Below are positions 2,869-21,557 of a stretch of DNA of 25,598 nt, piece by piece. Within the stretch, counting starts at the first letter, position 1; each line of letters starts with the position of its first letter. The stretch is from the IMG/VR virus record IMGVR_UViG_3300042923_000644, positions 1 to 25,598 of that record, one strand, 5' to 3'. The notes under the pieces are model-generated. The model did no database searches, was not told the DNA's origin, and was given only the letters and a program-made list of their open reading frames with translations. Source of the stretch: a virus. The translations under genes and the position numbers were made by a program.

Positions 2869-2886
2869 TTTTATATCTCCTATTTT

Positions 2887-3570: not shown

Positions 3571-3627
3571 AGATCATCTCTCTAGTAATAAATATCTAGT
3601 GAGATGCTAGTAATTCCTGAGACTTAC

Positions 3628-3643
3628 TTCATAGTGGTACTTT
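3628..3643 (-). promoter_or_regulatory. Late promoter motif, copy 1
   Basis: Minus-strand AAAGTACCACTATGAA, identical in all 16 bases to two other intergenic copies (8026-8041, 21510-21525). It lies 57 bases upstream of the start of the 227-residue gene. The CACTAT core followed by GAAG resembles SP6/T7-type phage polymerase promoters. No consistent sigma70 -10 follows at a fixed distance. It could instead be a site for a phage activator. Confidence 0.65.
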
Positions 3644-3697
3644 TTGGGTTTTGCGGCAGAACCTAAGAAAAATATATACTCAATACTACGGGGTAGG

Positions 3698-3752
3698 TTT
3701 ACAGAAAGCATTAAATGTAATACAATTATTACATGTATTTCTTGTAATACAA
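3698..3752 (+). promoter_or_regulatory. Autoregulated promoter of the RelB/RelE-type module
   Basis: TTTACA (3698-3703) and TACAAT (3721-3726) are exactly 17 bases apart. The -10 is covered by the inverted repeat TGTAAT-ACAATT-ATTACA (3716-3733), and TGTAATACA recurs as a direct repeat at 3743-3751. Repeats over the promoter are the usual operator arrangement for ribbon-helix-helix antitoxins acting with their toxin. Confidence 0.65.
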
Positions 3753-3768
3753 AAGAAAGGGGATTAAA

Positions 3769-4086
3769 ATGTTAAGCTTACGACTACCAAAAGAACTAGA
3801 AGCACGGCTCGATACGCTAGTTGAACATACAGGAAGAACTAAAACCTATTATGTTAAAAAAGCGCTTGAAAAGTTTATTGAAGATCAGGAAGATTACCTG
3901 TTAGCGGTTGCTGCTTTAGAAGAAGGTGGTGAAAATATCCCGTTTGAAGAGGTGAAAAGATTAGTTTATGGGCTGGATAATAGGGTTCAAACCAAAAGCA
4001 AAGGAGCTGTTGCTAAAACTTCCAAAATCAGCGCAGATTCAAATAGCAAAGAAACTAGAAAAAATCGAGAAGCTCCCAGACCCTAG
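3769..4086 (+). CDS. RelB/CopG-type ribbon-helix-helix antitoxin with extended tail
   Basis: Residues 1-45 form a ribbon-helix-helix DNA-binding domain: strand MLSLRLPKELEARLDTLV, then TGRTKTYYVKKALEKFIEDQ. Residues 46-70 look like the usual toxin-binding tail (EDYLLAVAALEEGGENIPFE then VKRLVYGLDN). Antitoxins of this family normally stop about there, near 75-80 residues. This frame continues about 35 residues further, as a basic low-complexity tail inside the toxin gene in another frame. AGAAAGGGG precedes the ATG. The product should neutralise the RelE-type toxin by direct binding and repress the promoter upstream. The role follows from family knowledge; the tail could be unimportant or could alter the complex. 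Confidence 0.8.
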   Translation: MLSLRLPKELEARLDTLVEHTGRTKTYYVKKALEKFIEDQEDYLLAVAALEEGGENIPFEEVKRLVYGLDNRVQTKSKGAVAKTSKISADSNSKETRKNREAPRP

Positions 4087-4234
4087 AATGCAGGGTGAGC
4101 CATTAAAAGAAAACATGGCTGGCTTGTGGCGTTACAGAGTAGGGGATTATCGGCTAATTTGTGAAATTCAAAATGATGTTTTGCAAGTCTTAGTGATTAA
4201 TATCGGCCATCGAAAAGATGTCTATAAGCATTAA
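3968..4234 (+). CDS. RelE-type mRNA interferase toxin
   Basis: An 88-residue protein of the RelE/ParE fold. It has an opening strand MGWIIGFKPKA, helices carrying AKELLLKLPKSAQIQIAKKL, the family block MQGEPLKENMAGLWRYRVGDYRLI and the C-terminal HRKDVY. The basic and aromatic residues R55, R57, R62, H81, R82 and Y86 match positions used by RelE-family toxins for ribosome-dependent mRNA cleavage. The length is normal. The ATG at 3968 gives the correct N-terminal strand and overlaps the antitoxin frame by 119 bases, much more than the few bases usual in such pairs. The pair sits between late virion units on the opposite strand, so it is probably an accessory stabilisation or defence module. Confidence 0.85.
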   Translation: MGWIIGFKPKAKELLLKLPKSAQIQIAKKLEKIEKLPDPRMQGEPLKENMAGLWRYRVGDYRLICEIQNDVLQVLVINIGHRKDVYKH

Positions 4235-4244
4235 CCCCCTCTAT

Positions 4245-4271
4245 TTGACATCCAGCAGCTACGGGTATATC
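4245..4271 (+). promoter_or_regulatory. Probable promoter of the secreted-protein gene
   Basis: A perfect -35 TTGACA (4245-4250) is followed by TATATC (4266-4271) with a 15-base gap, or by a weaker TATCGT at 17 bases. The gene start is about 40 bases downstream, which fits an independently expressed gene. Confidence 0.45.
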
Positions 4272-4309
4272 GTCACCTTTAGTTATATAAACTAACTGAG
4301 GGGATGATC

Positions 4310-5023
4310 ATGTATTCAGTAGCAAAAGCTTTTGTAGCAGGTTTGGCGGTTTTGGGTGGGGCTAAGGCTCAGCAACAAACTCAAACGATTTATAATTTAA
4401 ACCCTGGTGATAATGGTGTTTTTGGTATTCCCGCTAATTGTAGCGTTCAAGGCGTTTTTCCTTCTGATAATTCATGGGACTTGTCTGTTATTCCTGTTCA
4501 ATCCTCACCTCAAATATTGCAGATAGGTTTATCTGAAAAGACTTTCAACTATTCAAATTCTTTAGACAATAGAATATGGGTTTATAACGGCGGCAACAAA
4601 AGCGAAGAAAATGGGGCTTTATTTGATTGTACAGAAGGTGCTAACTTTTTGTGCATTCCAATCCCAGGATCAACAATTTTGGGGAATAATTTCTTCAATT
4701 ATCAGACCCTCTGTGGAGGTTTGGATAATGAAACAGAATTTAACTGTATCCTGTTTAAATCCCCCGATGATTCTTCGCCATTTGAATCTAAAGTACGAAT
4801 CTATACAAAAGGGTATAGTCCAGATCAAGATGGAGTTTCAGCTGACTCAATTGTGAATATACAATCTGGAGTACCATATAATTTCAAATTAAGCTCTAAT
4901 ATAACTAGTGATGTAGAAATAATGGCTATCCCAGAAATAAAAACACAAGGAACTGTTTTTTTAAGTTGTAGTCAACAGCAGTCATTAAAACAAAAAGAAT
5001 CTCATTCGGAGTTTTCTCATTAG
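4310..5023 (+). CDS. Secreted protein of unknown function, 237 residues
   Basis: The protein opens with a Sec-type signal peptide: MYSVAKAFVAGLAVLGGAKA followed by QQQTQ, with probable cleavage after AKA. The mature part has about 217 residues, is rich in Asn and Ser, beta-like, with cysteines in C(S)VQG, DCTEGANFLC, TLCGG, FNC and LSC contexts that could form disulfides in the periplasm. The ATG at 4310 is preferred over the in-frame ATG at 4304 because GAGGGG ends right at 4303, leaving a proper 6-base gap only for 4310. It has its own TTGACA promoter and ends at a terminator. It lies beside the toxin-antitoxin pair on the strand opposite the virion genes, as expected of a lysogenic conversion gene. 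I recognise no family. Confidence 0.65.
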   Translation: MYSVAKAFVAGLAVLGGAKAQQQTQTIYNLNPGDNGVFGIPANCSVQGVFPSDNSWDLSVIPVQSSPQILQIGLSEKTFNYSNSLDNRIWVYNGGNKSEENGALFDCTEGANFLCIPIPGSTILGNNFFNYQTLCGGLDNETEFNCILFKSPDDSSPFESKVRIYTKGYSPDQDGVSADSIVNIQSGVPYNFKLSSNITSDVEIMAIPEIKTQGTVFLSCSQQQSLKQKESHSEFSH

Positions 5024-5031
5024 ATAATACA

Positions 5032-5052
5032 GGGGCATTTAGCCCCCTTTTA
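5032..5052 (+). terminator. Terminator between convergent genes
   Basis: GGGGC (5032-5036), loop ATTTA and GCCCC (5042-5046), followed by CTTTTATT. It separates the secreted-protein gene from the convergent 972-residue gene, whose stop is immediately beyond. The minus-strand T run is poorer, so it serves mainly the plus strand. Confidence 0.65.
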
Positions 5053-7971
5053 TTAATAATAAACCACCAAGTTAATATTGACGTTCTGGCCTCTTGACTC
5101 ATGGCCTGACGGAGGTAATGTAAAATCAATAACATTTCCTTCATTCCCTTGCGTAAATGCCTGATTTGTTCCATTATCAGTAACAAATCCACCCAAGATA
5201 GTGTGGTCATGAGGGCCGGATTCATTTAACTGCAATGAACCAGTATTATCTCCGCTCGCGCTTTCAAGCGTTCCAGACGAATTGTAGTATAGAGGTAGCC
5301 TTGCATAATAATCAGGGTCTCTAGCCAATATCCCATTCAATATAAAGTATTCATCTGCTATAACTGTTTGCTGTGGCGCGATTCCGCCTATTAAGGAATA
5401 TTGCCCATTAATAATAAGTTCATCTCCACTAGTCCCTTGCTGGCTTAAGCAAATGCTATAATTTAATGTGCCATTTCCTACTGTAATTGCATCCGTGGTA
5501 TTTGCATCAGGTGTAATGCTTAATACTGAAACGTAGGTATTAACTGAAGTAACTGTAGCATGGTCACCTCCAGCCAGTGATTCACTTATTTGAGTGCCAT
5601 CTGTTCCAAGGCCTACAATATCAAAATTCACCAATGTTTCATCATCAATAGATGTAATGGTGATTTTTGAAGGGGTTGGCAAAATAGCTTCGCCATCGAT
5701 ACCAATATAAGTGCCTGTTGCGTTGGTATTTGCACTAGGAATAACGCTAGTAATTGCAGAGTATGTCCTTGCAGAGGTGACAAATTGAGGCGAGGTAGGA
5801 GTTCCTGTAGCAGAACCCACTAAAGATTCAGGGGTGCCGTATGGGTTTCCATCTTCGTCTAACCCTTCAATGCTAAAAGTGACAGCGCCATCATTGCCCA
5901 AAGAGGTAATTTTGATAGTAGAAGCATAAGGCAATACAGCAGTAGCGCCATTTTGCCAGAATCTAGGTGATAAACCCCTAACATCGGGTAGGCGATATTG
6001 AGCAATAGACCACTGAGCGGCAACTAATTGAGCTATTTCTGCTGACGTTTCTGTTCCATCATAAACGACTTTAATTCCTTTTTTGCCTGAAAGTGCAGGT
6101 AGGTTAGCAGGGTCTTGGGTCTGGTTATTCTTAGCAAACCATAAGTAGTATTCTTGGCTAGGTGATTCAAGCGTGAGATATGAGCCATTAACAATAGCGC
6201 TGCCTGCTAGACAAACTATACCCGCTATACCTGGAGTGCTTACCCCTCCTGCACTGATTTGAACAACAGGAAAGGTAGTATTATTATCTGCGATAGCTGT
6301 CACAGTGCCATTGCTAAAGCAAGTTCCCTGTACAGCATTTTGAGAAAGGGTTGCGGTAAAGCCAGCCACTATTGCAGCTTGAATTAAAGCAGCGATTTCT
6401 GCGGCTGTTTCAGTTCCAGTGTAGACAACGGGAACTGCTGTGCGACCTGGCACTGATGGCACTGACCCTGAGTTATTAAACCATAAAAAATAGCCAGTCG
6501 ATGGACTGTTATAGAGGAAGTATGAATTATTTGGAATATCAGCCCCAGGCTTGGCAAAGACAGTGAATTGAGCTGCAACGCTGGGTGTGCCTGTTACAGT
6601 TGAAACTATCCCAAGCCCACTATTGCCGTCCACTGCCGCCGCTGCCACTCCAACAGAAGAGGCTGTTGCATTAACCGCAAATGCGCTAGTCAAAGCATTA
6701 GTTGAATCATAATATTGAGCTACAAATCCCGCTGGCCCTGTTCCCCATGCTAGTTTTAGCTGCGAACTATCCCAGCATTTTTGGCCAAGATTATAATAAT
6801 CAGAGCCAAACTTAGGCAATCCATTACATAAGAAAGAATAATCAGGGGCTATGTTATTAATCCAAAGCTGCATCTTCCCCGCTCTAGGGATAAACGCTAA
6901 ATTAAAGCTTCCTTGAGGCAATATAGGGTCATAGCAGCCATCAGCCGGGTTTACGGTAGAAGAGAGAGGATATTGCAAAGCTATTGAATTTGCCTGGGTG
7001 ATGTCTACGCTTTCTTCTTGGAAAGGGACGAATTCATTACCGAATCTATCTATAATGTTGGTCAGGCTCACATCACAAATAGTATTGAGCGGTAGATCAA
7101 AGTTTATAGCGAGATAGTCTCCGCCATTAGGGTCTATTGTCTTACTGGAAATTGAGGGGACTTCTATTAAAACTTCATTGTTTGCCCAGCTCGTTGTTAA
7201 GGTGATTCCGCTTATGTCCTCATCTACAGTAGCTGAACCGGCTGCCCCAAAGTATTGAGTTGTAGAGATGGTTATTTGGTTTTGATATGGGCTTATCCCC
7301 TGGAATTGCAGATTAACCGTTTCATTGGCAAACTGTCTTACAGAGTTGAACTTTACCCTAAAGCGCTTGGTAGCTTCTCCTGTTCCTGGTACTCCAGCAA
7401 AATATCTTATATAGGCTTTGGGGTTATTAGGTACTTGAGTTTGACCAGGGCTAAAATCTGTAACATATACAATATCATTTGTTGCTGTGGTATTGTCCTT
7501 CTCAAAGTACCAGTTGCCAGGGGCAATAGGGATTTCAGCGGCTTGAAGATTGCTAAATCCTCTATCACCAGAGGTATTGATAGTCTTAGCATAATCAAAG
7601 AAGAACTGCCCATTAATGATATAGTTCTGGATATCAGTTTCTAATAAGATGATATTCCCTGAATTGGGGTCAGGATATCCGTACATCTCACCGATGGTTA
7701 CATTATTTGAATCGGTAATTCTAATATAATAGGGTGCGTCATCTTCCCCGATAATAGGATACCAAGTGCCATTATCTGATTGCTTACCTGAAGCATCTAG
7801 GGTTATTGGGTGGTCCCAAGGTACAGTTAAATCAAAGTCTTGATATACAGGCTTTGGAATAGTAGGGTTATCAGATTCAAAGAAATAAGCTTTACCACCA
7901 GAGGCGGGCAAGCCATCAAGTTTAGTGAAGTACCAAAACGGACTGTAAAGCAATAATGGACTAGCGGGCAT
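5053..7971 (-). CDS. Large tail fibre with interrupted tail-collar domain
   Basis: A 972-residue virion protein. The N-terminal part (1-110, with PLLLYSPFWYFTKLDGLPAS and VYQDFDLTVPWDHPITLDAS) looks like a virion-anchoring domain seen in podovirus tail proteins. Residues about 368-396 (LWINNIAPDYSFLCNGLPKF) match the first half of a phage tail-collar domain. Its second motif LPDVRGLSPRFW comes only at 661-672, and the final HDHT and QNVNINLVVYY at 920-972. Two insertions split the domain, each containing a duplicated module: 478-531 and 593-650 (YFLWF / YYLWF, VVYTGTETAAEIA / VVYDGTETSAEIA), then 683-754 and 767-832 (KITSLGNDGAVTFSIEGL / TITSIDDETLVNFDIVGL). The late motif lies 54 bases upstream of the ATG. 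Role in host recognition is inference from the domain type. Confidence 0.75.
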   Translation of the reverse strand: MPASPLLLYSPFWYFTKLDGLPASGGKAYFFESDNPTIPKPVYQDFDLTVPWDHPITLDASGKQSDNGTWYPIIGEDDAPYYIRITDSNNVTIGEMYGYPDPNSGNIILLETDIQNYIINGQFFFDYAKTINTSGDRGFSNLQAAEIPIAPGNWYFEKDNTTATNDIVYVTDFSPGQTQVPNNPKAYIRYFAGVPGTGEATKRFRVKFNSVRQFANETVNLQFQGISPYQNQITISTTQYFGAAGSATVDEDISGITLTTSWANNEVLIEVPSISSKTIDPNGGDYLAINFDLPLNTICDVSLTNIIDRFGNEFVPFQEESVDITQANSIALQYPLSSTVNPADGCYDPILPQGSFNLAFIPRAGKMQLWINNIAPDYSFLCNGLPKFGSDYYNLGQKCWDSSQLKLAWGTGPAGFVAQYYDSTNALTSAFAVNATASSVGVAAAAVDGNSGLGIVSTVTGTPSVAAQFTVFAKPGADIPNNSYFLYNSPSTGYFLWFNNSGSVPSVPGRTAVPVVYTGTETAAEIAALIQAAIVAGFTATLSQNAVQGTCFSNGTVTAIADNNTTFPVVQISAGGVSTPGIAGIVCLAGSAIVNGSYLTLESPSQEYYLWFAKNNQTQDPANLPALSGKKGIKVVYDGTETSAEIAQLVAAQWSIAQYRLPDVRGLSPRFWQNGATAVLPYASTIKITSLGNDGAVTFSIEGLDEDGNPYGTPESLVGSATGTPTSPQFVTSARTYSAITSVIPSANTNATGTYIGIDGEAILPTPSKITITSIDDETLVNFDIVGLGTDGTQISESLAGGDHATVTSVNTYVSVLSITPDANTTDAITVGNGTLNYSICLSQQGTSGDELIINGQYSLIGGIAPQQTVIADEYFILNGILARDPDYYARLPLYYNSSGTLESASGDNTGSLQLNESGPHDHTILGGFVTDNGTNQAFTQGNEGNVIDFTLPPSGHESRGQNVNINLVVYY

Positions 7972-8025
7972 TTATTCGCCTAAAATTGTGGGTTTTAAGC
8001 GAGTGTAGAGAGGGTTTATAAAACC

Positions 8026-8041
8026 TTCATAGTGGTACTTT
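8026..8041 (-). promoter_or_regulatory. Late promoter motif, copy 2
   Basis: Minus-strand AAAGTACCACTATGAA, the same 16 bases as the copies at 3628 and 21510. It starts at the last base of the upstream gene's stop codon and ends 54 bases before the start of the 972-residue gene. Its position lets the fibre gene be expressed separately from the long head operon. Confidence 0.65.
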
Positions 8042-10128: not shown

Positions 10129-11506
10129 TTATAGTACTCACGAATTGTTCAGGGGATTCTCCAGCTTGTTGTGCTGCTGATCTTACATCTGCCATAGGCC
10201 ATACCTTACCACCAATATTATAGGTAGCCATTGGTTGTAATTGTTTGGCTGCCTGGAACGCTTCATTTCTAAGAGCGGGTGGTAAAGGTTGACCGCTTAA
10301 ATCTTTGGCCTGGTTATAAACATCAATGTTTAAGTTTTGCAGCATCTGCTTGGCTTGTTCAGGATCAATAGCATCATGGCTAGATATCTGATCTTGCATG
10401 TTCAAAATTGCTTTAATAGAGCTTGAACCTGTCAATGTACCTGCCACAGATTCAGTTGCAATTCCTAGCTGTTTCTCAAAGTTTAAATAATCAGCATATC
10501 CAGGAGGATAGGTTCCCACTTTATGATATTCAGCAATAGCTTGTTTAATCAAAGGAACGGCCTGCTTGCCCATATACTGAGTGACTTGCGGATTATCTAA
10601 TAAAGGCATGATTTGCTGCATACTTGAGGCATATTCTGGTAAGCCATTAGTCTTAATTAATGTTTTATGATCGACTTCTGAGCCACTTAAAATAGGTGTG
10701 CCAGGCGGTAGAGGCGGCATTGTATTGTTATTAGCAATATATTCATCCTGCTTGCCTTGGGGCCATAATGTAAAGTTTTGTTGTGTTGGGAAGCTTCCTG
10801 GTTGTCCGCCATAACCCACTGCTGGCTGTGCTGGAGCAGATGTTGGCATACCAGGGGTAACAGTTGAACTAACATTAGCTCCCTGGTTAATCGCTTCTTG
10901 GTTGGTGAGTTGAGCTTTTTGAGCTTCAGCCGCCGCTTCTGCTTGGTTGAGCTGTACTTCAGATTGAGGCTGTTTGAACGCAAGTGCGGCAAACCCTGGC
11001 AATGAAATGCCACTTTGTGTAAAAGGAGATGATGAGCCAGCTGGAAACTGAGTGCTTGCATTTGCATCAGCATAAGCTTGACCTCCTGGCGTTGAAGTAT
11101 TTATTCCTGTAGATTCTAACCCTAAATAAGCTCTGGCTGCTGATATTTGCTGAGGAGTAGAATTAGGGTTATTAACTATTGCTTGATATTGGAGCTGGGC
11201 TTGTCCGGCTGGATTGTTAAATCCATTTGTGATGTTATTAGCTTGTGCGCTATAATATTTTCCTTTCGCTGCTTGGTCTTGCCCCTCTCCCTGATATAGT
11301 CCTGCTTTTGCCTGATTCATAGCAATAAGGGATTGCTGCATTTGCGGCATATATTGCAATTGTGTGCCAGTGATCTGGTTTTGCAAGTTCGCTTGGGTAT
11401 TAGCTAAACCTTGCCCAATACCTTGCAAGCCTTGATTAAATCCAGCCATACCAGCGTTTTGCATGCCGTTAGGTATTTGTTCATAACCCATCAATCCAAA
11501 AGCCAT
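10097..11506 (-). CDS. P22 gp20-like DNA ejection protein
   Basis: A 469-residue protein at the position of P22 gene 20 (471 residues), between gp7-like and gp16-like genes. Composition is typical of internal ejection proteins: very high Gln, Ala, Asn and Gly, a helical N-terminal half (MQNAGMAGFNQGLQGIGQGL, MPQMQQSLIAMNQAKAGLYQ) and EVQLNQAEAAAEAQKAQLTN in the centre. Residues about 300-400 look more ordered (GKQAVPLIKQAIAEYHKVG, SSIKAILNMQDQISS). There are no membrane helices. AGGAGAATTAA precedes the ATG; the 3' end overlaps the next gene by 32 bases. Function is inferred from order and size, because these proteins diverge rapidly. Confidence 0.6.
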   Translation of the reverse strand: MAFGLMGYEQIPNGMQNAGMAGFNQGLQGIGQGLANTQANLQNQITGTQLQYMPQMQQSLIAMNQAKAGLYQGEGQDQAAKGKYYSAQANNITNGFNNPAGQAQLQYQAIVNNPNSTPQQISAARAYLGLESTGINTSTPGGQAYADANASTQFPAGSSSPFTQSGISLPGFAALAFKQPQSEVQLNQAEAAAEAQKAQLTNQEAINQGANVSSTVTPGMPTSAPAQPAVGYGGQPGSFPTQQNFTLWPQGKQDEYIANNNTMPPLPPGTPILSGSEVDHKTLIKTNGLPEYASSMQQIMPLLDNPQVTQYMGKQAVPLIKQAIAEYHKVGTYPPGYADYLNFEKQLGIATESVAGTLTGSSSIKAILNMQDQISSHDAIDPEQAKQMLQNLNIDVYNQAKDLSGQPLPPALRNEAFQAAKQLQPMATYNIGGKVWPMADVRSAAQQAGESPEQFVSTINGRSSTSTQR

Positions 11507-11515
11507 TTAATTCTC

Positions 11516-12142: not shown

Positions 12143-12154
12143 GATTAATATTCC

Positions 12155-12433
12155 TTAAGCTGCTGTTTTCGTTAAGTTATACAAAGTGCCGTTCAGGTTT
12201 ATTTGCAGTTCACCGCTATCGGTGTTGTAAATAAAAACCTGTTGCGAATACTGCGGATTAGCGCTTTGTTGTGCTGTTGTCAGACTAGGGACTGAATAGC
12301 CAGCCTGCAAAGTGGTACTTATTAGCTGATATAGGTTGTTAAAGAACATCAACCAAGGTGCGGTCAACATCATGTTATTAACAATCGGACTGCTTACAGG
12401 TGGTCTAACAAGTGTTTGATTTAAGTTTGTCAT
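12155..12433 (-). CDS. Small protein between gp10-like and gp7-like genes, 92 residues
   Basis: I do not recognise a named family. The 92-residue protein has a Pro/Thr/Asn-rich start (TNLNQTLVRPPVSSPIVNN), a hydrophobic and aromatic central segment (MMLTAPWLMFFNNLYQLIST) and a C-terminal beta-like part (QQVFIYNTDSGELQINLNGT). It sits where P22 carries gp26 (tail needle) and gp14, but it lacks the long coiled coil of a needle. The start is the ATG at 12433, preceded by GGAGGTGG and overlapping the stop of the gp10-like gene as ATGA. This implies coupled translation and a role in the same structure, perhaps tail closing or virion assembly. Confidence 0.6.
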   Translation of the reverse strand: MTNLNQTLVRPPVSSPIVNNMMLTAPWLMFFNNLYQLISTTLQAGYSVPSLTTAQQSANPQYSQQVFIYNTDSGELQINLNGTLYNLTKTAA

Positions 12434-13899
12434 GGGCCTACCACCTCCACCCAAAGCGACATATCTCGCATGAAAAAAGGAATGTCGTCGAAGTTTTGGA
12501 ACTTAAAGACCCATGCCCCGCTATCAGATATGCCAAGATTATGGAAATAAGCCTGTGTGTTATATTTGCCCATAGCACCAATACTGGCTCTCATGGACTT
12601 GCTATAGTTAATTCCGCCGTTTTTAGACCATGACAGCCATACTTCAGGGCTTGCCGATGTTCCTGTGTTAGTACCAAAGCCAGGGGCGCAATCAACCGTT
12701 ACATAAGCTATTTGAGTATCTTGTAGGGTAGGAGTGACAAAGCGGTGAGTAATACGCTCTTTGACGATATTTTCACCGTTAAAATTAGTATATTCTTGGG
12801 AGAGTTCATAAAGCTTATTATCGTTGTAAGACAAACAATAATTGCGCTCATTAAAGCTTAAGTGTGCACAAATAGGATGTCTTGAACCATCAGCAAGCTT
12901 TTGTTTACTCCAGGTATCATTAGTGAAGTTATAGAGCCAGGATGAATCTACTTCATTAGAATTGCTTGCAGTAAAGTTAATGGCATAGAAGGTATAGCCA
13001 TTTTCTCTAAACATATAAGCGTCAGCTGATTGAATAGTCTTTTTGCTATAGTTATTTATTTCCTGTTCAACATCGGTCGAGCTAATCACATTAGCCTGTC
13101 CGCCTTGGCTCATGAATACGGAAGTTGTTCCCTGTGCTGAACTACCCAAGAAAAACAACATATCCATCCCTTGAACAACAGAGCCAAGCGCTATAGTGCC
13201 GTATTGATAAAGCATGGTATCAAGACGCGCGAATGGGAATCCTGGATTTCCTGCATCGTTCCAAACTTCTGTAACTTGTGTACCGAATAAGTAAAGCTGC
13301 CTATTGTTGACAGCAACCGCTTGGATGGTATCCGCTGCGGTCTCCAAGGCTCCAATCAAAGGCGTATTGTTTGGATCAATCCAGGTTAAGCCATCGTTTT
13401 CTGCGCTTAGCTGAAACTCGTTTGAGTTGAAAGTATTAATAATAAAGCGGCCATCAAGGAATGCGACACTGCTAGGACTCCCTAAAAAGTTAACATCTGT
13501 TATGGTTTGAAAGGTATTGCTGACGGTGTTATAGATATAGCCATTAGCGCCATCAACTATCATCAATTGATTGTTATTGTTTCCCGCCATTTGAACGGGG
13601 CCACTATCGGTTGTTAGTGTTCCAATCAAAATAGGCTGCAAGGTGTTGGTGATCTTATAAACATATTGAGAGACCACCGCAAAGCCGAAAGTCTGATAAG
13701 GGAATAAGCCTTGAGTTCTGCCTGCCTTTGCCCTTGTAAATGTTGCCTTTTCTAAATAGCCAGGAACATTGATCAAAGCGTCAGGTGTTTTAGGGTCGTT
13801 CTCATTAATGAGATACATATTGTAGGTCTGTTCAGGGTTAATTCCCGCTTGTTTGACCTTGTTAAATGTTCCCACCACTGGGAAAGGAATCTTTGGCAT
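12430..13899 (-). CDS. P22 gp10-like packaged-DNA stabilisation/tail hub protein
   Basis: A 489-residue protein close in length to P22 gp10 (472 residues), which binds below gp4 after packaging and forms the tail hub that retains DNA. The sequence is a beta-rich succession of blade-like repeats: QTYNMYLINENDPKTPDALI near the N-terminus, QLMIVDGANGYIYN at 111-124, VAFLDGRFIIN at 145-155, and the family block AVNNRQLYLFGTQVTEVWND then FPFARLD at 196-227. The C-terminal half continues with short strands up to SLWVEVVGP. AAGGAAATCTC precedes the ATG. It follows the gp4-like gene by nine bases, the same order as in P22. Confidence 0.8.
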   Translation of the reverse strand: MPKIPFPVVGTFNKVKQAGINPEQTYNMYLINENDPKTPDALINVPGYLEKATFTRAKAGRTQGLFPYQTFGFAVVSQYVYKITNTLQPILIGTLTTDSGPVQMAGNNNNQLMIVDGANGYIYNTVSNTFQTITDVNFLGSPSSVAFLDGRFIINTFNSNEFQLSAENDGLTWIDPNNTPLIGALETAADTIQAVAVNNRQLYLFGTQVTEVWNDAGNPGFPFARLDTMLYQYGTIALGSVVQGMDMLFFLGSSAQGTTSVFMSQGGQANVISSTDVEQEINNYSKKTIQSADAYMFRENGYTFYAINFTASNSNEVDSSWLYNFTNDTWSKQKLADGSRHPICAHLSFNERNYCLSYNDNKLYELSQEYTNFNGENIVKERITHRFVTPTLQDTQIAYVTVDCAPGFGTNTGTSASPEVWLSWSKNGGINYSKSMRASIGAMGKYNTQAYFHNLGISDSGAWVFKFQNFDDIPFFMRDMSLWVEVVGP

Positions 13900-13908
13900 G
13901 AGATTTCC

Positions 13909-14637
13909 TTAAAATGGGGGAATGTTAGAAGACATAGGCCACATGAAAGTGGAGCCGCGTAAACTTGGGGCTTTTTGAATGGCGATATCAACATCATTGC
14001 CAGCATTGAACTGTTCACGAAGATACAGGAATTCAGTTTCTGCTCTCTCATCCCAAACAGAGCTTTTATAGCGCAGGGATAATTCTCTACCCAGGGCATA
14101 GCGTAAATACTTAAGCATATGGGGCGGTATATTGCTCATATCAGTATTCTTAGTGATATTGCTTAGGGCAGCTTTACCTCTGATAATGACTTGATAAACA
14201 TTGTTAGGCGCAGGGTAAAATTGAACTTGGCTTGTATTAACCCCTGGAACCAATATCATTTCACGAGGCATTGAATAAGCAATTAAGCTTCTAGCAGTAT
14301 CAAAAAATTCTTCGCGAGTTTTAATATAAATCGGGTATTGAGTGTTATTGAAAATGACCTGGGCCATTTCAAGTTCAATAAGAGGGTTTTCTACTAGATC
14401 TGCCTCTGAATCTGTGGAGATGGTATAGGCCGCTTGACCATTGACCGTGTTTAAGGTGTAGGCAACATAATATGGAATATTAATTCCGGATGCCTGGTCA
14501 GCCCCTAAAATCTGGTTGAGATAATCTATGCCGTCCTGATACATATTGTCAGGAAGGTCATCGTTTTGGTTAATAATGCCAACAAAGCTATAAGCCTGTC
14601 TTACGAAGGTAGCACTGTTAACTGTTTCTATTGTCAT
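13909..14637 (-). CDS. P22 gp4-like head-to-tail adaptor
   Basis: A 242-residue protein in the position of P22 gp4, the tail accessory factor that attaches to the portal after packaging. Residues 8-50 are helical (ATFVRQAYSFVGIINQNDDL, MYQDGIDYLNQILG), as in head-completion adaptors. The middle is strand-rich (QVIFNNTQYPIYIKTREEFF, SQVQFYPAPNNVYQVIIRG), then a helix HMLKYLRYALGRELSLRYKS contains the conserved-looking Arg/Glu pattern. It is longer than P22 gp4 (166 residues) but typical of relatives outside enterobacterial phages. A strong AGGAGG lies before the ATG. The gene begins just after a terminator-like hairpin behind the coat gene, so it is probably expressed at a lower level than coat protein. 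Confidence 0.75.
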   Translation of the reverse strand: MTIETVNSATFVRQAYSFVGIINQNDDLPDNMYQDGIDYLNQILGADQASGINIPYYVAYTLNTVNGQAAYTISTDSEADLVENPLIELEMAQVIFNNTQYPIYIKTREEFFDTARSLIAYSMPREMILVPGVNTSQVQFYPAPNNVYQVIIRGKAALSNITKNTDMSNIPPHMLKYLRYALGRELSLRYKSSVWDERAETEFLYLREQFNAGNDVDIAIQKAPSLRGSTFMWPMSSNIPPF

Positions 14638-14648
14638 GATTGCCTCCT

Positions 14649-14678
14649 AAAAAGGGGAAGGCTAAATAGACCTTCCCC
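14649..14678 (-). terminator. Intercistronic terminator behind the coat gene
   Basis: On the minus strand GGGGAAGG (14678-14671), a 9-base loop and CCTTCCCC (14661-14654) run into five T residues (14653-14649). The perfect 8-bp stem lies between the coat gene stop and the ribosome site of the gp4-like gene. It probably acts as a partial terminator or as a 3' stabiliser, giving abundant coat mRNA and less downstream mRNA. Confidence 0.75.
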
Positions 14679-14684
14679 ACAGGT

Positions 14685-15947
14685 TTATGCGTCAGTACAC
14701 ATCACGCAAACAAGCTCAGGAGCAATACCAGTTGCAGCAAGCGCATCAAGGTACAACACGTTTGTGTTGGTTGATGGGCTAGGGAACTTGGTTACACGGA
14801 AACCCATACCGGAATGTGGATCTCTGTATTGACCTTTCATGTTAGGGGCAACGTCAAACTGAATCTGATCGATAGGCGCAAACAAAATACCGCGTTTTTG
14901 ATAAGCAATATTGAGTTTGTGATTTCCCATGATTTGAACAGCATCATTAAGTGTTAATGGACGGTTCAAGTTACGGTTAGGATCTGAGCTATTAGCATTG
15001 ATCCCAGCAGAGCCAACATAGATAGTAACAGTCAATAATCCGCCGCCATCAGCAGTACCGCCAGTAACAACAGTTGCCGTGAAGTTTTGGCTAATGTCTT
15101 GACGAGTGACTGGGTTCACTTTTTGGCTATCAGTAAAGGTTAAGCGATCGCCAGCAACGATGGTTGCACCTGGAGTTAATCCTTTTAACTGAACGCTTGA
15201 ACCAGAACTTACGGTTGCTGCAACCTGTACGTTGGTATCACCAGCAGCAGTACCCGCTACGTGTGAATAGATAACTTCAGACCAATAGCAGTCAAAGCTT
15301 GATACATGCCCGATAGCCTTAATGTCATCACGCAAAATAGCATCATTAGTTTTAGGGAAGAACTGACTAGATGCAGCAGTACCGTTGGCAAGTGAAGCAT
15401 AATCACCTGGGGTCATATTCAAATACCAAGGCATATTGCTAGGTACTGAGTATTCGCGGAAGAAGGTCGCAGCTTGTAAGATTTTGCTCTTATTATCAAG
15501 CAAACCTGTCGCAGCGTTATCATAAGTGCTGGTAAAGTCTAGGAAGTTATAACCATAGAGTTCGGCTTGTTGAATCAAGTCTTGCTCCATACCAGCAGCA
15601 ATAACAGCTGCACATGGCTTAGCTGTTTGATCATCTAAGTCACGAATGAATAATTTTTCATCAGTGGTTGTGTAGTTTACCGAGGTGCGGTAGGGTTGCT
15701 GTACTGTTAAAGGTACAGTCCTATCGACAATCGCTTCTGATACAACAGTATTACTACGCTGTAAGGTGAAACGGTTATCAATTGGCACATTCACGACAGA
15801 GCCAACAGTCGTAATGGCATTAGTATTGAACATCTTTTTATATTCAGTATTTGCGGTCTTGATTAAAGGCGACTGAGTATAAAATTCCTGAGCAATACGT
15901 TTTGCAATCAGGGTTGGCGCTGCATAGTTAGATACTGTAATTGTCAT
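14685..15947 (-). CDS. Major coat protein, P22 gp5 family
   Basis: A 420-residue protein, near the 430 of P22 gp5, forming the icosahedral shell. The N-terminus MTITVSNYAAPTLIAKRIAQ followed by NTEYKKMFNTNAITTVGSVV and NVPIDNRFTLQ fits this HK97-fold family. Residues about 85-125 (RTSVNYTTTDEKLFIRDLDD, AAGMEQDLIQQAELYG) match the spine-helix region. A beta-rich inserted stretch at about 225-330 (VQVAATVSSGSSVQLKGLTP, GTADGGGLLTVTIYVG) is where P22 carries its telokin-like insertion domain. The C-terminus ends LVCVMCTDA. GGAG lies eight bases before the ATG. The scaffold gene is immediately upstream and a terminator hairpin is behind it, so it can be expressed most strongly. Confidence 0.85.
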   Translation of the reverse strand: MTITVSNYAAPTLIAKRIAQEFYTQSPLIKTANTEYKKMFNTNAITTVGSVVNVPIDNRFTLQRSNTVVSEAIVDRTVPLTVQQPYRTSVNYTTTDEKLFIRDLDDQTAKPCAAVIAAGMEQDLIQQAELYGYNFLDFTSTYDNAATGLLDNKSKILQAATFFREYSVPSNMPWYLNMTPGDYASLANGTAASSQFFPKTNDAILRDDIKAIGHVSSFDCYWSEVIYSHVAGTAAGDTNVQVAATVSSGSSVQLKGLTPGATIVAGDRLTFTDSQKVNPVTRQDISQNFTATVVTGGTADGGGLLTVTIYVGSAGINANSSDPNRNLNRPLTLNDAVQIMGNHKLNIAYQKRGILFAPIDQIQFDVAPNMKGQYRDPHSGMGFRVTKFPSPSTNTNVLYLDALAATGIAPELVCVMCTDA

Positions 15948-15974
15948 TTCTTAAGTCTCCATAGAGGCGACTCG

Positions 15975-17075
15975 TTACCTCATGTTTTTAATTTCCCATT
16001 CCTTGAGTTTATTAAGCTGTTCATTGCTCATTCGTTCGAGGTTCTTGGGGTCATAAACACGAGATTTAACGGGCGCGGATTTTGTTGGGATGGTTGATTT
16101 AATTTTTCCCGCAGGCTGGGGCTTAGGCTTAGCTGCTGCTTCCTGGTGACGGCGTTTCACCTCATAATTGAATTCCGCTTTCCATTCAGCGACCTTCATG
16201 ATTTGATGGTCTCTTGGCTTAAGCTTTAGGCTTGCCAGCTCTGCGTTTTTGGTCTTATGGAGATACTTGACGATTTGAGCAGCATTAGGGCTGTCTGATA
16301 CGGCTACCAGCATGTCTGGTGTGAAGTTATTAGGTTCATACCAAAGCTTTCTTAAATCTTCGTCGGTATCGATACGAGCTTGAACTGCACCCAATACCTT
16401 GTTTAAGTCGGCTTGATAACTTGCTTTTTGCTGAGCTTCAAACTGTGCCTTTTGTTGCGCTGCTTCTTGAGTCTTCTTAACAGAGTCCAGATAGTTAAAT
16501 TGCTCAAGAGCATTCATTTGTTCCCAGGGCTTAGAGAGTTCTGGAAGTGGGATTTGAGACAAATCTGCAACATGAGGGTTGACGGCAGATTGGCCGTTTT
16601 GGCCTGGTTGCGGTACTCCTGATAGTTGATTGATCTGTCTTTTGATCTGTTCCAGTTCGGCTTCTACGCCTTTGGTTTTTTGAACTTTCTTGGCAATGAT
16701 CTTATCGATGACTTTTTGTTGTTCAGGTGTGAACTGAACCCTTAAGGACTCATCGTCAGTATCTTCCGGGCTTAAATCATCAACTTTAAATAGGTCGTCA
16801 TCAGCTTTAGTTTCTGCGTTCTCATCCTCGGATGCTTTATTTGCAGAGTCTTCCTCAGCCTGATCGTCGTTGTCTTCTTCGCTTAAGAGTTGGTCAATAT
16901 CAATTTCTGGCTCTTCAGTCTCAGCCGTACTGTGATCTTCATTGACTGCTATATCAGCAGAATCTTCAGCTACTTGTTGGTTTTGTTGGTGTTTAGCATA
17001 TTCAGCATCAAGCGCCGCTTGGTCAACTTCGTCGTTTGATAGTTTTTGTGCTTCACTTTGATTTAAGCCATTCAT
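15975..17075 (-). CDS. Scaffolding protein, P22 gp8-type
   Basis: A 366-residue protein between portal and coat genes, the position of P22 scaffold gp8. Residues 1-110 are extremely acidic and disordered (EEPEIDIDQLLSEEDNDDQA). Next comes a helical stretch (FTPEQQKVIDKIIAKKVQKT, GVEAELEQIKRQINQLSG), then a Gln/Ala-rich coiled coil around 200-225, and a basic C-terminus (KPKPQPAGKIKSTIPTKSAP, KLKEWEIKNMR). A basic helical C-terminal tail that docks onto acidic coat surfaces is known for P22 scaffold. The acidic N-terminus, basic tail and gene order together support the call, although sequence identity to gp8 cannot be judged here. AAAGGAAAAAAC precedes the ATG. Confidence 0.7.
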   Translation of the reverse strand: MNGLNQSEAQKLSNDEVDQAALDAEYAKHQQNQQVAEDSADIAVNEDHSTAETEEPEIDIDQLLSEEDNDDQAEEDSANKASEDENAETKADDDLFKVDDLSPEDTDDESLRVQFTPEQQKVIDKIIAKKVQKTKGVEAELEQIKRQINQLSGVPQPGQNGQSAVNPHVADLSQIPLPELSKPWEQMNALEQFNYLDSVKKTQEAAQQKAQFEAQQKASYQADLNKVLGAVQARIDTDEDLRKLWYEPNNFTPDMLVAVSDSPNAAQIVKYLHKTKNAELASLKLKPRDHQIMKVAEWKAEFNYEVKRRHQEAAAKPKPQPAGKIKSTIPTKSAPVKSRVYDPKNLERMSNEQLNKLKEWEIKNMR

Positions 17076-17123
17076 AGTTTTTTCCTTTTTTTCCGTGTTT
17101 AATGCTTCACGTTCGCGCCCAGG

Positions 17124-19241
17124 CTAACTCTGCCCGTTAGAGGATGATTGCGCCTTTTCTGGCGGCTGCATTGCTACAGCGAGGTCTTTAACATTCTTAA
17201 AATGGGCTACATGGCTTGATGTCATATCGTTGTGATACTGCATCTGTGCTTTAGCGAGCTCTGCCGTTGTCTTGATCTGGTCTACCTTTCCATCGATCAA
17301 GGTTTGGATATAATCGACATCAGTCTTTTTGCTATCGTTTTGAATCTGCATAGCCTTGAGCTGGTTTTCAGCCGCGTTCTGTTGTGCTTCCATCTGAAGC
17401 TTTTGCTGTTCAAGCATGACTTGAGGTGGTGGAGGAGGTGGCGGAGGAGGTGGCTTACCATCTTCTTTAGCAATAATCTGAGGGGGGACTATTGCTTTAG
17501 CTCGCTCCACCAATTCAGGCATATTTGGCGCATTAGATAGGCCAAAGAGTTTGTCAGCGAAATAAGGGAATGCAGGAGCAGCAGAGGCTTGCAGAATGTC
17601 GAGAATGAATTGTCTTTCTTCCATGCGTTGCAGCTCATAGTTAGAGCCAACAGATACCATGACAGATAGGTCATCAGGCTTAATCTGGTTCTCAACTTGC
17701 ATTGTGTCTGGATTGAAATTATTGAGCTTGGCTCTATAAACTTTGTGCTGCTCAGCATAGAGATTCATTTCTCTTGGGCCGTCATAGAGATTATTGATAA
17801 GGTCGTTTGTGACAACTCCACCCTGTTCAATAGCTTTGTAGAGGCCATCCAAAAACTTGTTAACGAGAATGTTTTGCTGTCTCAAGCGGTTGGCAATAGC
17901 AACTCCTGAAACCTCAGGAGCAGCATCACCCATTGCAACTTCTGTGCGTCCTAATATGTCAGCCAGGTTATTACAGGCCACTTCAAAGGCTTGTAAGAGC
18001 TCAGGTGGAATAGGCACAGCCTCACGGAATATTGGAACGCCGCCAGGAACGGTAGGGTCGGGCTTAAATGGAACATAGCCCACAGGCTTTTCAGGGTTTT
18101 TGATGATATGAAGGCTGCCCTCAAACATCTTATGAGTGGCATATATAGTCTCTCTGCGATAGTTCTTAACGTGTTGGCATATTTCAGACCAGATAAAGTT
18201 AATTGAGCGCTGAGCATCAAAGGCATCATCAGTAATAGACTTAACAAACTGCTTACCGTTCAGCCAATAGCTATAGCCATCGACATATATGACGGGTAAG
18301 TGCCGGCCTGGGAAGTCATACTCTTCTAGGATTTCAACTTTGGTTAAACGAGTACAAGTAATGGTGTAATCATTAGCAGTCTTTCGGTCAATGATCTGAG
18401 GCAATGGGATACTGTCAGCAGGAATACCCATAGCGCTTGCCATCTGTTCAGCAGCTTCTTTGTATGAAGCTACATACTCTTCAAAGTCTTCTTCCTGGAT
18501 GACTTCATCTGGCTTGCCTGAAATGGTTGGGCTAACCTTAACCATTTTCTTTTTAAACCATTTCTTTTCGTAGATTTCAGCAACAGCTATAAGGGGTTCG
18601 CCATCATCGCCATTAGTTTCAGCAAGGGCTATTTCTTCTGAGTTGGTATCCCACTTTTCAGCAGTAGGTTCAGCATTAGGCCAATTCTTCTTGAATTCAC
18701 TTTGAACTAAATAGCTAATATCACCTGAATAATCACCGTCAGACTTTGTTTTGTTCTTAGCTTTGACATCCCAAAAGCAGAGTGTTGGCTCCTTTTTAGG
18801 CTCCATCATAACGTCTTGATCAAAGCTTGCTGCGCTTGAATAATCGGTGTAATACTTCAGCGCACCAAAGCCACCTTTAAGCGCACATTCAAAGGCAGTC
18901 TGATAGCATTCTTTGGCGTGGTTCTTGATCTGTATTGTGCGTAAGATATCGTTGCGTAAATTGATGCTCTCTTGGTTGGCTTCGTCTTTATCTACAACGA
19001 TTTGCATTTCAGGAGTAACAGATAGCTGTTCGCCAACAATCTGAGTGATAAACTTCTTGAGCAAGTTATGGCGCATCATAACTTTGCCGTTTTCAGTGTA
19101 GAAAGCGACAGTATCGCCATCCCACTGCTCGCCTTCATTAAAGGCTACGTTTTCATGATAATTGCTGATATTGTCCTGATAGTATTCATACCAGGCATCG
19201 ATCTTCGCATTGATCTTTTCAAGCTTCTTGGATGGTTTCAT
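17124..19241 (-). CDS. Portal protein, P22 gp1 family
   Basis: A 705-residue portal, close to P22 gp1 (725), which forms the dodecameric ring through which DNA enters and leaves the capsid and which docks the terminase. The N-terminal part has KINAKIDAWYEYYQDNISNY, NVAFNEGEQWDGDTV and the stem-region block RSINFIWSEICQHVKNYRRE. Residues near 410-440 (LADILGRTEVAMGDAAPEVS) match the helical core of this family. The C-terminus begins with ten consecutive prolines at 597-606 and continues as a Gln-rich helix (QVMLEQQKLQMEAQQNAAEN), the likely equivalent of the long helical barrel of P22 portal. Its ATG overlaps the terminase stop as ATGA, implying coupled translation. Confidence 0.85.
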   Translation of the reverse strand: MKPSKKLEKINAKIDAWYEYYQDNISNYHENVAFNEGEQWDGDTVAFYTENGKVMMRHNLLKKFITQIVGEQLSVTPEMQIVVDKDEANQESINLRNDILRTIQIKNHAKECYQTAFECALKGGFGALKYYTDYSSAASFDQDVMMEPKKEPTLCFWDVKAKNKTKSDGDYSGDISYLVQSEFKKNWPNAEPTAEKWDTNSEEIALAETNGDDGEPLIAVAEIYEKKWFKKKMVKVSPTISGKPDEVIQEEDFEEYVASYKEAAEQMASAMGIPADSIPLPQIIDRKTANDYTITCTRLTKVEILEEYDFPGRHLPVIYVDGYSYWLNGKQFVKSITDDAFDAQRSINFIWSEICQHVKNYRRETIYATHKMFEGSLHIIKNPEKPVGYVPFKPDPTVPGGVPIFREAVPIPPELLQAFEVACNNLADILGRTEVAMGDAAPEVSGVAIANRLRQQNILVNKFLDGLYKAIEQGGVVTNDLINNLYDGPREMNLYAEQHKVYRAKLNNFNPDTMQVENQIKPDDLSVMVSVGSNYELQRMEERQFILDILQASAAPAFPYFADKLFGLSNAPNMPELVERAKAIVPPQIIAKEDGKPPPPPPPPPPQVMLEQQKLQMEAQQNAAENQLKAMQIQNDSKKTDVDYIQTLIDGKVDQIKTTAELAKAQMQYHNDMTSSHVAHFKNVKDLAVAMQPPEKAQSSSNGQS

Positions 19242-20791
19242 ACTCTGCCGCTCCAGTTAGCTTCTTTGGTGAATAAATTGACGTTGTTATAGTCTTTGGT
19301 TAGGACGGATTCGCCATTGAGACCCAGGCACAGATATTGCAGAGCATCATGGATATGGGAGTTTTCGTTCTTGTCGGCAAAGTCGGCATATCTCACACCA
19401 TCGGCGCCAGCTATCATTTTGAAGTGATAGCCACCCAAAAACCCTTCACGCAGCAAAAAGCATTCAAGGCGATTAATAACAATGGCAGGTGAACCCATAG
19501 ACATCTTGTTCAGGGCTGCTTTAACTGCATCCCATCTAACAATTGGGTCGTTGCTGATACCAGCAGCTGGGTTAAAGTGATATTTCTCTAAAATAGAGAA
19601 GCAGCTCACGCCGTTAGACTGAGCATTGGTAATGCCTGAGGGATCTCCGAAGGTTGCTTTGACTTGCCACTTAGGACAGTAAGCATTGAGCCAAGGTATG
19701 ACTTGATTAGTAATAAGCTCTTCAAGGTTCATGTTCTCAGAGGTGAACTCTTTGAACACTTCGATCTTGCCGAGTGGGTTGTAGTGAGCTAATACAATGG
19801 CGGGTGTGTTGCCAAAGTCAGCTCCACAATAGATAGGCATGCCTTCGATATAGTTGATCTTATCGGCTGAATGAATATGATCGTTGTATTGTGGATAAAT
19901 GATCTTGCTGTCTTTATATGAGCCATACTCACCGAGACAAAACACTTTGATGAACTCATCATTAGCTCCAAGTGTCATCTTTTGGTAATAGTCTGGCGCT
20001 AAATTCTTCTTGTTATCGGCTTCTAAGTTATCAACCCATTCCCCGTTCTCATCTTTAACGAGTCCAGGCGGTTGTTTGAACATGACAAATTCGGGATGTT
20101 TTTCTTTCTCGAACATGCGATAAATCCATGAGCGAGTGTTAGGTGGGTTAGTATCTGCGATAATCCCTGTCCAGTAAGGCTCAGGGCATATCGACTTACT
20201 TGGATATCGTCCATTGATTCTTCCTTTCATGAACTGAAATACTGATTCTTGAAGTCCTGAAAGCTCATTAAGCCATGCACCTGTGAACTCAGCAGACTTA
20301 AGGCTTTCTAATTGGCCCGGTCTATCAAGTGCTAAGAAGATAATCTCAAGCTCACATTTGCCTTTATCATCGTAATATTCACAAAAGTAATAAGGCGGCT
20401 TTTGAGTGATGCGTACTTCACCAAAGTGTCTGAACCAATCAAGCCAGGTTTGCACTGTTGATATCTCAAGCATGCGATAGGTATTGCGGACAACGCACCA
20501 TTTAGCGCGTCTGGTGCCATCAATGCACTTTGGCATCTCACAAGTACGCTTTAATATTTCATGGCAGCAAGTGACGGATTTACCACTACCAAATGGCCCC
20601 ATGATCACTTTAAAAAAGCTGTCATCGCCATGAAACTGAATGCCAGTAGGGGAGGGCTTATAGAACCTGTTGTTTTTGTTTTGGGTGATAACATATCCGT
20701 CTGTTATCTGTACATCAGAAATTCGTGCGTCATTAGCGGTAAGTGATGCTCTGTAATTTCGCATCTCATCAAGCACTTTAGCGTAGGCCAT
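19238..20791 (-). CDS. Terminase large subunit
   Basis: A 517-residue packaging motor, similar in size to P22 gp2 (499). The ATPase domain has Walker A GPFGSGKS at 65-72, a Walker B-type strand FTGAWLNE ending in Glu176, and the coupling block GIIADTNPP at about 209-217. The nuclease domain has three acidic metal sites of the RNase H fold: Asp325 in GADFG, Asp383 in FGDPSG and Asp482 in HDALQYL. All catalytic positions are present, so the enzyme should be active. It hydrolyses ATP to pump DNA through the portal and cuts the concatemer. Its ATG overlaps the small subunit stop (TAATG) and its stop overlaps the portal start (ATGA), so the three are coupled. Confidence 0.95.
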   Translation of the reverse strand: MAYAKVLDEMRNYRASLTANDARISDVQITDGYVITQNKNNRFYKPSPTGIQFHGDDSFFKVIMGPFGSGKSVTCCHEILKRTCEMPKCIDGTRRAKWCVVRNTYRMLEISTVQTWLDWFRHFGEVRITQKPPYYFCEYYDDKGKCELEIIFLALDRPGQLESLKSAEFTGAWLNELSGLQESVFQFMKGRINGRYPSKSICPEPYWTGIIADTNPPNTRSWIYRMFEKEKHPEFVMFKQPPGLVKDENGEWVDNLEADNKKNLAPDYYQKMTLGANDEFIKVFCLGEYGSYKDSKIIYPQYNDHIHSADKINYIEGMPIYCGADFGNTPAIVLAHYNPLGKIEVFKEFTSENMNLEELITNQVIPWLNAYCPKWQVKATFGDPSGITNAQSNGVSCFSILEKYHFNPAAGISNDPIVRWDAVKAALNKMSMGSPAIVINRLECFLLREGFLGGYHFKMIAGADGVRYADFADKNENSHIHDALQYLCLGLNGESVLTKDYNNVNLFTKEANWSGRV

Positions 20792-21270
20792 TATTTGCCC
20801 TCCGCTTTAATTCGTTTGATCTCCGCCCACTCTTTCTTGATTTCTTCAAATTCGATGAGCTGATATTTCTTAGCTATGCCATTGATAAAGCTTTCAGCTT
20901 CCATTGAGCCAATAAGACCATTACTAGCAGCTTTAATGATTGAGCCAATCTGCTCATTGGGTGGAAGGCTGTCGTCATAGTCAAACTTCTTATCAAATAC
21001 CCCGCGACAGCAAAGCGTGAGATACTTAGATATTGCTTGAACATCACCCATACAAGCTTTTTCAAACAACGTGCTTACTACACGCTTAGCCCTCTCAAGC
21101 TTGGCTTCTTTGATTTCATCAGAAAACGCTTTACAGAATGTATCAAGATCAATCGGCTTTTTAGTTTGAGGATTCTTAATCTCAAGACGAGCATAGTCCG
21201 CTGATATCCCTAAAGACATGGATTCTCTAGCGTTAAACTTATCTTCGTCAGTTGGGATAAATTCCTTCAT
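20791..21270 (-). CDS. Terminase small subunit
   Basis: A 159-residue helical protein directly upstream of the large terminase and overlapping it by one base, the standard position of the DNA-recognition subunit. P22 gp3 is 162 residues. The N-terminal half carries NARESMSLGISADYARLEIK and a long helix (TFCKAFSDEIKEAKLERAKR, VVSTLFEKACMGDVQAISKY), then a loop DKKFDYDDSLPPNEQ. The C-terminus is a charged helix (FEEIKKEWAEIKRIKAEG) likely to contact the large subunit. The call rests on position, size and helical character rather than on a conserved motif. It should bind the pac site and stimulate the motor. Confidence 0.75.
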   Translation of the reverse strand: MKEFIPTDEDKFNARESMSLGISADYARLEIKNPQTKKPIDLDTFCKAFSDEIKEAKLERAKRVVSTLFEKACMGDVQAISKYLTLCCRGVFDKKFDYDDSLPPNEQIGSIIKAASNGLIGSMEAESFINGIAKKYQLIEFEEIKKEWAEIKRIKAEGK

Positions 21271-21295
21271 AGATATAATCGATTCCGAAATAGGG

Positions 21296-21454
21296 TTATT
21301 TGACTTTCTTGAGGTTGGGATTAGCTTTCTTGGCGGCAGGTGAGGCTTTGCGAGTAGATTCAGCTAGAATTGCTCCGGCATCTTTTTTGCTTACGCCTTG
21401 TTTTGCTGCGATCTTGTTTTGAACAGCTTTAAAACCTGGACTTGACTTAGCCAT
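21296..21454 (-). CDS. Small basic protein heading the late operon, 52 residues
   Basis: A 52-residue, lysine-rich protein: MAKSSPGFKAVQNKIAAKQG, then VSKKDAGAILAESTRKASPA and a C-terminus KKANPNLKKVK. The central part is helical (GVSKKDAGAILAESTRKAS); the ends are basic and probably bind DNA or RNA. GAGGG lies just before the ATG, and the reading frame is compact with clear codon structure. It is the first gene after the late motif (55 bases from motif to ATG) and 25 bases ahead of the small terminase. Similar tiny basic proteins sit before terminase genes in other phages, without known function. I cannot name a family with certainty. Confidence 0.7.
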   Translation of the reverse strand: MAKSSPGFKAVQNKIAAKQGVSKKDAGAILAESTRKASPAAKKANPNLKKVK

Positions 21455-21509
21455 ACATCCCTCGATATTTGTTTAGATACAAGGGTTTTTAGCAGTCACC
21501 AGAAAAAGT

Positions 21510-21525
21510 TTCATAGTGGTACTTT
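21510..21525 (-). promoter_or_regulatory. Late promoter motif, copy 3, heading the head operon
   Basis: Minus-strand AAAGTACCACTATGAA, identical to the copies at 3628 and 8026, 55 bases before the small basic protein and so at the head of the unit reaching to about 8041. The regulator gene on the other strand has its -10 only some 27 bases away, so the two promoters share a short divergent region. Confidence 0.7.
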
Positions 21526-21551: not shown

Positions 21552-21557
21552 TATAAT
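21552..21557 (+). promoter_or_regulatory. -10 element of the HTH regulator gene
   Basis: TATAAT stands 29 bases before the ATG of the regulator, with AAGGA (21574-21578) as ribosome site between them. No good -35 is visible at 17 bases, so an activator or another feature may be needed. Confidence 0.45.

Follow-up and report, generated by a model that had tools for sequence, protein, structure and literature searches.

Identical 16-bp elements before three late units of a P22-type phage, probably switches of a virus-specific late regulator

Introduction

What switches on the late genes of a P22-type phage in which one and the same short sequence stands before three separate late units? In P22 and lambda, late genes are switched on through Q, which allows a single long transcript to extend across them. 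The environmental IMG/VR record IMGVR_UViG_3300042923_000644 (G000; 25,598 bases, analysed in full and hereafter called the window) contains three mismatch-free minus-strand copies of the 16-mer AAAGTACCACTATGAA, each of them shortly upstream of a late unit. An earlier note on this DNA had read the copies as promoters of the T7/SP6 type and predicted either a dedicated single-subunit RNA polymerase or a specific activator. According to the analysis reported here, the repeats are probably switches of a virus-specific late regulator rather than T7-style polymerase promoters. The comparison was made with IMGVR_UViG_3300038435_000221 (G001, 29,181 bases), the only close relative found, and with the second nearest relative (G002). 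All three environmental records are partial; the window is classed as linear and is probably a fragment.

Results and Discussion

Three copies of one element

The copies and the late units that they head are as follows.

3628..3643 (3643-3628), minus strand: late element copy 1, AAAGTACCACTATGAA, exact match, 57 nt before the ATG of fibre-pair gene 2887-3570
8026..8041 (8041-8026), minus strand: late element copy 2, AAAGTACCACTATGAA, exact match, 54 nt before the ATG of the 972-aa fibre gene
21510..21525 (21525-21510), minus strand: late element copy 3, AAAGTACCACTATGAA, exact match, 55 nt before the ATG of the 52-aa head-operon leader gene
2032..3570, minus strand: fibre pair (genes 2887-3570 and 2032-2868), the former 45% identical to the gene that immediately follows the fibre in G001
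5053..7971, minus strand: 972-aa fibre, G001 orthologue 37% identical over 771 columns
21296..21454, minus strand: head-operon leader gene (first gene, 52 aa)
12430..21270, minus strand: head operon, with a 159-aa small gene at the TerS position, TerL, portal, scaffold-position gene, P22-type coat, 242-aa gene and head closure Hc3

Exact search, reading to the next ATG and the gene positions thus bear out what the earlier note had seen, i.e. the three perfect copies, the distances of 57, 54 and 55 nt, and a late unit behind each copy. Copy 2 starts within the stop codon of gene 8041-10128, which lies upstream. Identity across all three copies spans exactly 16 bp, and the flanking sequences of the three window copies show no significant similarity to one another. 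With up to three mismatches allowed, four matches were found in the window against 0.39 expected (maximum two in 100 shuffles), and the copies supply the window's only non-repetitive 13-mers that occur at least three times, when no 14-mer reached three occurrences in 60 runs of a third-order Markov null. Chance does not account for the three copies. The search for further copies that the earlier note proposed added, in this record, only the fourth match (12306-12321, three mismatches), which lies inside an open reading frame (ORF) and is at chance level. Across IMG/VR the exact 16-mer gave seven single matches, all within or overlapping ORFs and about as many as expected by chance.

No minus-strand sigma70-like site was found at the three places, and no -10-like hexamer occupied a common position across the five leaders of the window and G001 (p 0.52), in agreement with the earlier note, which had reported no -10 at constant spacing.

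A different element at matching positions in the relative

The relative G001 is 63% identical to the window in TerL, 51% in portal and 58% in coat. The 16-mer AAAGTACCACTATGAA has no copy in G001. Instead, a different 27-bp element, ATAATAAATACCATNNAAATATTGCCA, occurs exactly twice (10104-10130 and 23825-23851) and nowhere else in that record; both copies end 59 nt before an ATG, the first upstream of the head-operon leader gene (ATG at 10190) and the second upstream of the fibre (ATG at 23911). The two copies agree at 25 of 27 positions, when the best pair anywhere in the genome reached 23 in 20 Markov nulls. Only TACCA is common to the window and G001 elements, CACTA being absent from the latter, and a search of IMG/VR with ATAATAAATACCATNNAAATATTGCCA returned G001 itself only.

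Between the two phages, the position of the element before the head operon and the fibre is conserved and its sequence is not. The conservation in relatives that the earlier note asked about therefore holds for the places and not for the letters. Different elements at matching places argue for a regulatory site that diverges together with its reader, and the note's second option, a specific activator, fits this pattern better than a polymerase does, although the reader itself is a matter of inference.

The identity of short sequences before exchangeable fibre genes could also mean that the repeats are recombination boundaries or traces of a recent duplication with no regulatory role. This is very unlikely: the head operon is preceded by a copy as well, the flanks in the window are not detectably related, and two of the three positions bear an independent element in G001.

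Likeness to T7/SP6 promoters

The promoters of T7, T3 and SP6 share the core CACTATAG, with positions -4, -3, -1 and +1 conserved (PMC13029058). When CACTAT is aligned to this core, CACTATGA fits at -4 and -3 and fails at -1 and +1. Ungapped comparison of the elements with the T7, T3, SP6 and K11 promoters gave best matches of 9–13 of 23 positions, against a background of 243–335 places in the window that score at least 12 of 23 for each of these promoters. The resemblance to an SP6 promoter lacking one base, as put forward in the earlier note, is thus literally true over CACTAT and GAA and statistically unremarkable. On this evidence a T7/SP6-type promoter is not supported, with the promoter likeness at background, -1 and +1 wrong, and the element sequence not kept in G001.

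The Pfam RNA_pol profile, which found T7 RNA polymerase in a positive control (E 1e-109), matched nothing in the partial records G000, G001 and G002 or in Xanthomonas phage PBR31, and the predicted dedicated T7/SP6-like polymerase is accordingly unsupported. A profile of sigma region 2 likewise gave no match in G000 or its two nearest relatives. As all three environmental records are incomplete, absence of a polymerase gene from them is not proof. The element could in principle be a complete promoter for a phage single-subunit polymerase, or for an alternative sigma factor, encoded outside the sequenced part of the genome; a gap-free stretch of 16 conserved bases, the absence of a -35, leaders of about 55 nt and the short CACTAT likeness would suit such an enzyme. 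Yet the family likeness at background with two conserved positions failing (PMC13029058), the negative profile searches, and a G001 element without CACTA in a phage of lambdoid layout make this explanation improbable.

Hairpins next to the start codons

Between each element and its start codon, a hairpin was predicted.

3575..3606, minus strand: leader 1 hairpin, folding energy (dG) -9.9, 1 of 100 shuffles as good, GAGAGAUG in the 3′ arm
7976..8002, minus strand: leader 2 hairpin, dG -8.5, 0 of 100 shuffles as good
21459..21485, minus strand: leader 3 hairpin, dG -6.9, 0 of 100 shuffles as good, GAGGG in the 3′ arm

The two G001 leaders fold with dG -9.9 (1 of 100 shuffles as good) and -3.0 (15 of 100), so that the hairpin is strong in four of the five leaders and weak in the fifth. 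The 3′ arms end 0–4 nt before the AUG, and the arms vary in sequence between copies. For comparison, only two of 39 other genes of both phages reach dG -6 or below; the test was devised after the folds had been seen, and its significance is to be read with care. Bases like a Shine-Dalgarno (SD) sequence occur in the window 3′ arms (GAGAG, a weaker AGGCG, and GAGGG; at least two of the three leaders), and none is recognisable in G001.

Comparable hairpins in phage T4 silence read-through messages, whereas translation proceeds from late messages whose 5′ ends lie within the hairpin (PMC3014915, PMC2988022). By analogy, the window hairpins with SD-like 3′ arms suggest that read-through messages would be poorly translated and that messages starting inside the hairpin would not be so affected. 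In such a T4-like case, the start site would lie about 20 nt before the AUG, placing the element near -40, an activator position, and a start inside the hairpin would also explain the fixed distance between element and AUG.

The hairpins, which abut the AUG of the element-headed genes, could alternatively mean that transcription starts upstream and that the element acts in RNA, forming with the hairpin a leader for control of translation or stability. The element, however, lies mostly outside the predicted RNA structure, about 20 nt upstream of the hairpin 5′ arm, and the leaders have no Rfam match. The short ORF that begins at the ATG of the element (MK-stop, 19 codons and 13 codons in the three copies) is not conserved, and the extra copy described below stands at a place where transcription of a late unit would have to begin anew. 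An RNA leader of this kind is rather unlikely.

An extra copy behind an insert

The window fibre is separated from the fibre pair by an insert on the opposite strand.

3769..5023, plus strand: insert with ribbon-helix-helix antitoxin (3769-4086), ParE/RelE-type toxin (3968-4234) and secreted protein (4304-5023)

The protein 4304-5023 has a signal-peptide-like start. Copy 1 of the element (3643-3628) stands at this place. In G001 the corresponding fibre-pair gene begins 13 nt after the fibre, behind an open AAAGGAG, and has neither element nor hairpin, in contrast to the window gene behind the insert, which has both. On the simplest reading, the fibre-pair genes, once cut off, needed a late start of their own. 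As a separate observation, a hairpin close to the AUG, its 3′ arm containing GAGGGG, is also seen in gene 4304, which lacks the element.

A candidate reader of the element

A small gene adjoins the head operon and is the likeliest source of a protein that would read the element.

21587..21970, plus strand: 127-aa basic helix-turn-helix (HTH, XRE-like) protein, pI 9.9, divergent from the head operon, weak HTH_3/HTH_31 match, candidate late regulator

Only HTH_3/HTH_31 were obtained from Pfam for this protein; its predicted fold is of low confidence (pLDDT 57), resembles XRE proteins at the N-terminus only, and matched no PDB entry at E 0.001 or better. G001 encodes an HTH protein of 120 aa (9652-10014, pI 8.5) on the same strand as its head operon, which it adjoins as the last early gene; the two proteins are 24% identical (pairwise E 2e-7). 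The layout of G001 is lambdoid and that of a temperate phage, and its HTH gene occupies the Q position. Since G001 has a separate S24-type repressor and an HTH gene at the Cro position, this protein is not its CI. The antitermination family Phage_antitermQ (PF06530) gave no match; other Q families were not searched. On these comparisons, we infer that the HTH protein is most likely the reader of the element.

Upstream of the divergent HTH gene is a perfect plus-strand TATAAT (21552-21557) that lacks a good -35. Copy 3 would lie at about -39 to -54 of such a promoter, and autoregulation of the HTH gene could occur.

XRE proteins are often repressors, and copy 3, with the head operon on one side and the divergent HTH gene and its TATAAT on the other, could regulate the HTH gene too. 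The element might serve the HTH protein as an operator for keeping the late units repressed in the lysogen. Against this, the sites overlap no sigma70 promoter that a repressor could block, G001 has a separate S24 repressor, and a fixed distance to the AUG is unexpected for operators alone. Repression is for these reasons of low probability, and activation would be the more plausible mode.

Proposed mechanism and points against it

The reading that we favour, to which we give about an even chance, is that the repeats are late promoters or operators of a fast-evolving phage regulator, likeliest the adjoining HTH protein, which works with the host polymerase. The repeats would be promoter-proximal recognition sites of the late regulon of a P22-type phage. 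A phage DNA-binding protein would read the element and guide the RNA polymerase of the host to where each late unit starts; this reader would likeliest be the small basic HTH protein adjoining the head operon, found in G001 at the lambdoid Q place. Fast co-evolution of element and reader would leave G001 with another sequence at equivalent places, and late units severed by the insert would carry an extra copy. The AUG-proximal hairpins may damp translation of read-through messages, as in T4 gene e.

Several observations weigh against this proposal. The HTH gene of the window is inverted relative to that of G001, the two HTH proteins are only weakly supported as orthologues (24%), and many phages encode XRE proteins. 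The elements contain no significant dyad, though an XRE dimer would prefer one, and they lack a -10 at constant spacing (p 0.52), from which known activators usually act at a fixed distance. The leader genes of the window and G001 head operons are not demonstrably homologous, the second G001 leader hairpin is weak (15 of 100 shuffles as good), and just one close relative was found.

A scan of genome contigs with the alignment of the TerL pair had no matches, and a scan with six TerLs gave 45 distant loci with 29–38% identity. Among about 60 other loci, mostly relatives of 20–43%, no comparable paired upstream elements at matched distance were found; two weak pairs only were noted, in L045 and L070. 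The system is thus either rare or too diverged to see.

Other features of the phage and its relatives

The virion genes are of the P22 type, as the earlier note had recognised, with portal, head closure Hc3 and ejection protein identified. The best-matching podoviruses include Shewanella X14, Thalassomonas BA3, Vibrio VvAW1 and Rhodoferax P26218, with 22–30% identity. The fibre-pair gene 2032-2868 (minus strand) encodes a short fibre-like protein whose C-terminal domain is Pfam K1-lyase_C (E 1e-12), a domain found in phage capsule lyases, without an evident lyase. A second toxin-antitoxin pair, consisting of a BrnT toxin (E 1e-21) and a CopG/BrnA-like antitoxin gene, is present near the end of the early region (24915-25428, minus strand).

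In G001 (locus L026) the early operon includes a GroES-like protein (8791-9075; Cpn10, E 1e-16), and Xanthomonas phage PBR31 has an annotated GroES at a comparable position. Tandem 23-bp repeats, AGATTCAGGGAAAGTCAGAATCT, lie at 6789-6926 of G001 (L004 5745-5882) within the presumed replication gene 6475-7227 and are possibly origin iterons. In the distant relative L032 (IMG/VR 3300033148_005698), sites around TCTCATCAGT occur at 1407, 2775, 3361 and 3726 in intergenic parts of the early region, and these are possibly early promoters or operators.

Comparison with known late control systems

In phage P2, one activator, Ogr, serves four late promoters with TGT-N12-ACA (PMC3931495). The proposed system is similar in having several copies of a short element, each heading a late operon, and one small phage activator. 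It differs in sequence, TGT-N12-ACA being absent from the window and G001 element sequences, in having no detected dyad, in its HTH candidate instead of a zinc finger, and in the P22-type virion.

With Ltr/RinA of Gram-positive phages (PMC13123087), the likeness lies in a small basic protein of about 130 aa, whose gene in G001 is the last of the early genes, adjoining the late promoter; compared by description, the size, charge and position of the HTH protein match those of Ltr (PMC13123087). In the phages described here, two to three units bear an element and the element is single, whereas Ltr/RinA act at one late promoter with four direct repeats; the candidate is XRE-like, and its gene is inverted in the window. 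One element heads the late units in the window and one in G001, a trait of activator regulons.

The T7/SP6 family (PMC13029058) shares a CACTAT stretch and multiple copies heading late units, and is set apart by -1 and +1, by the scores of 9–13 of 23, by the lack of a polymerase gene in the partial records and by a G001 element that bears no relation to CACTA. In T4, genes e, soc and I-TevI (PMC3014915, PMC2988022) likewise have an AUG-proximal hairpin below a late element, with an SD-like 3′ arm in some leaders, but the element studied here is some 20 nt upstream of the 5′ arm and no T4-type TATAAATA is present.

From the Q system of P22 and lambda, the window phage differs in its several repeated late elements, its lack of a Phage_antitermQ match and a candidate with a DNA-binding HTH. 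It is conceivable, as a tentative generalisation, that in a Gram-negative P22-type lambdoid lineage Q antitermination has given way to a multi-site late regulon under a small activator of the XRE type, in which element and reader would change together and a hairpin that silences read-through would follow each site.

A P22-type phage with a relative of lambdoid layout and, seemingly, several dedicated late elements would show that the control layer is exchangeable. The window and G001, with distinct elements at equivalent places and homologous HTH genes, would form a natural experiment on the co-evolution of a regulator and its sites.

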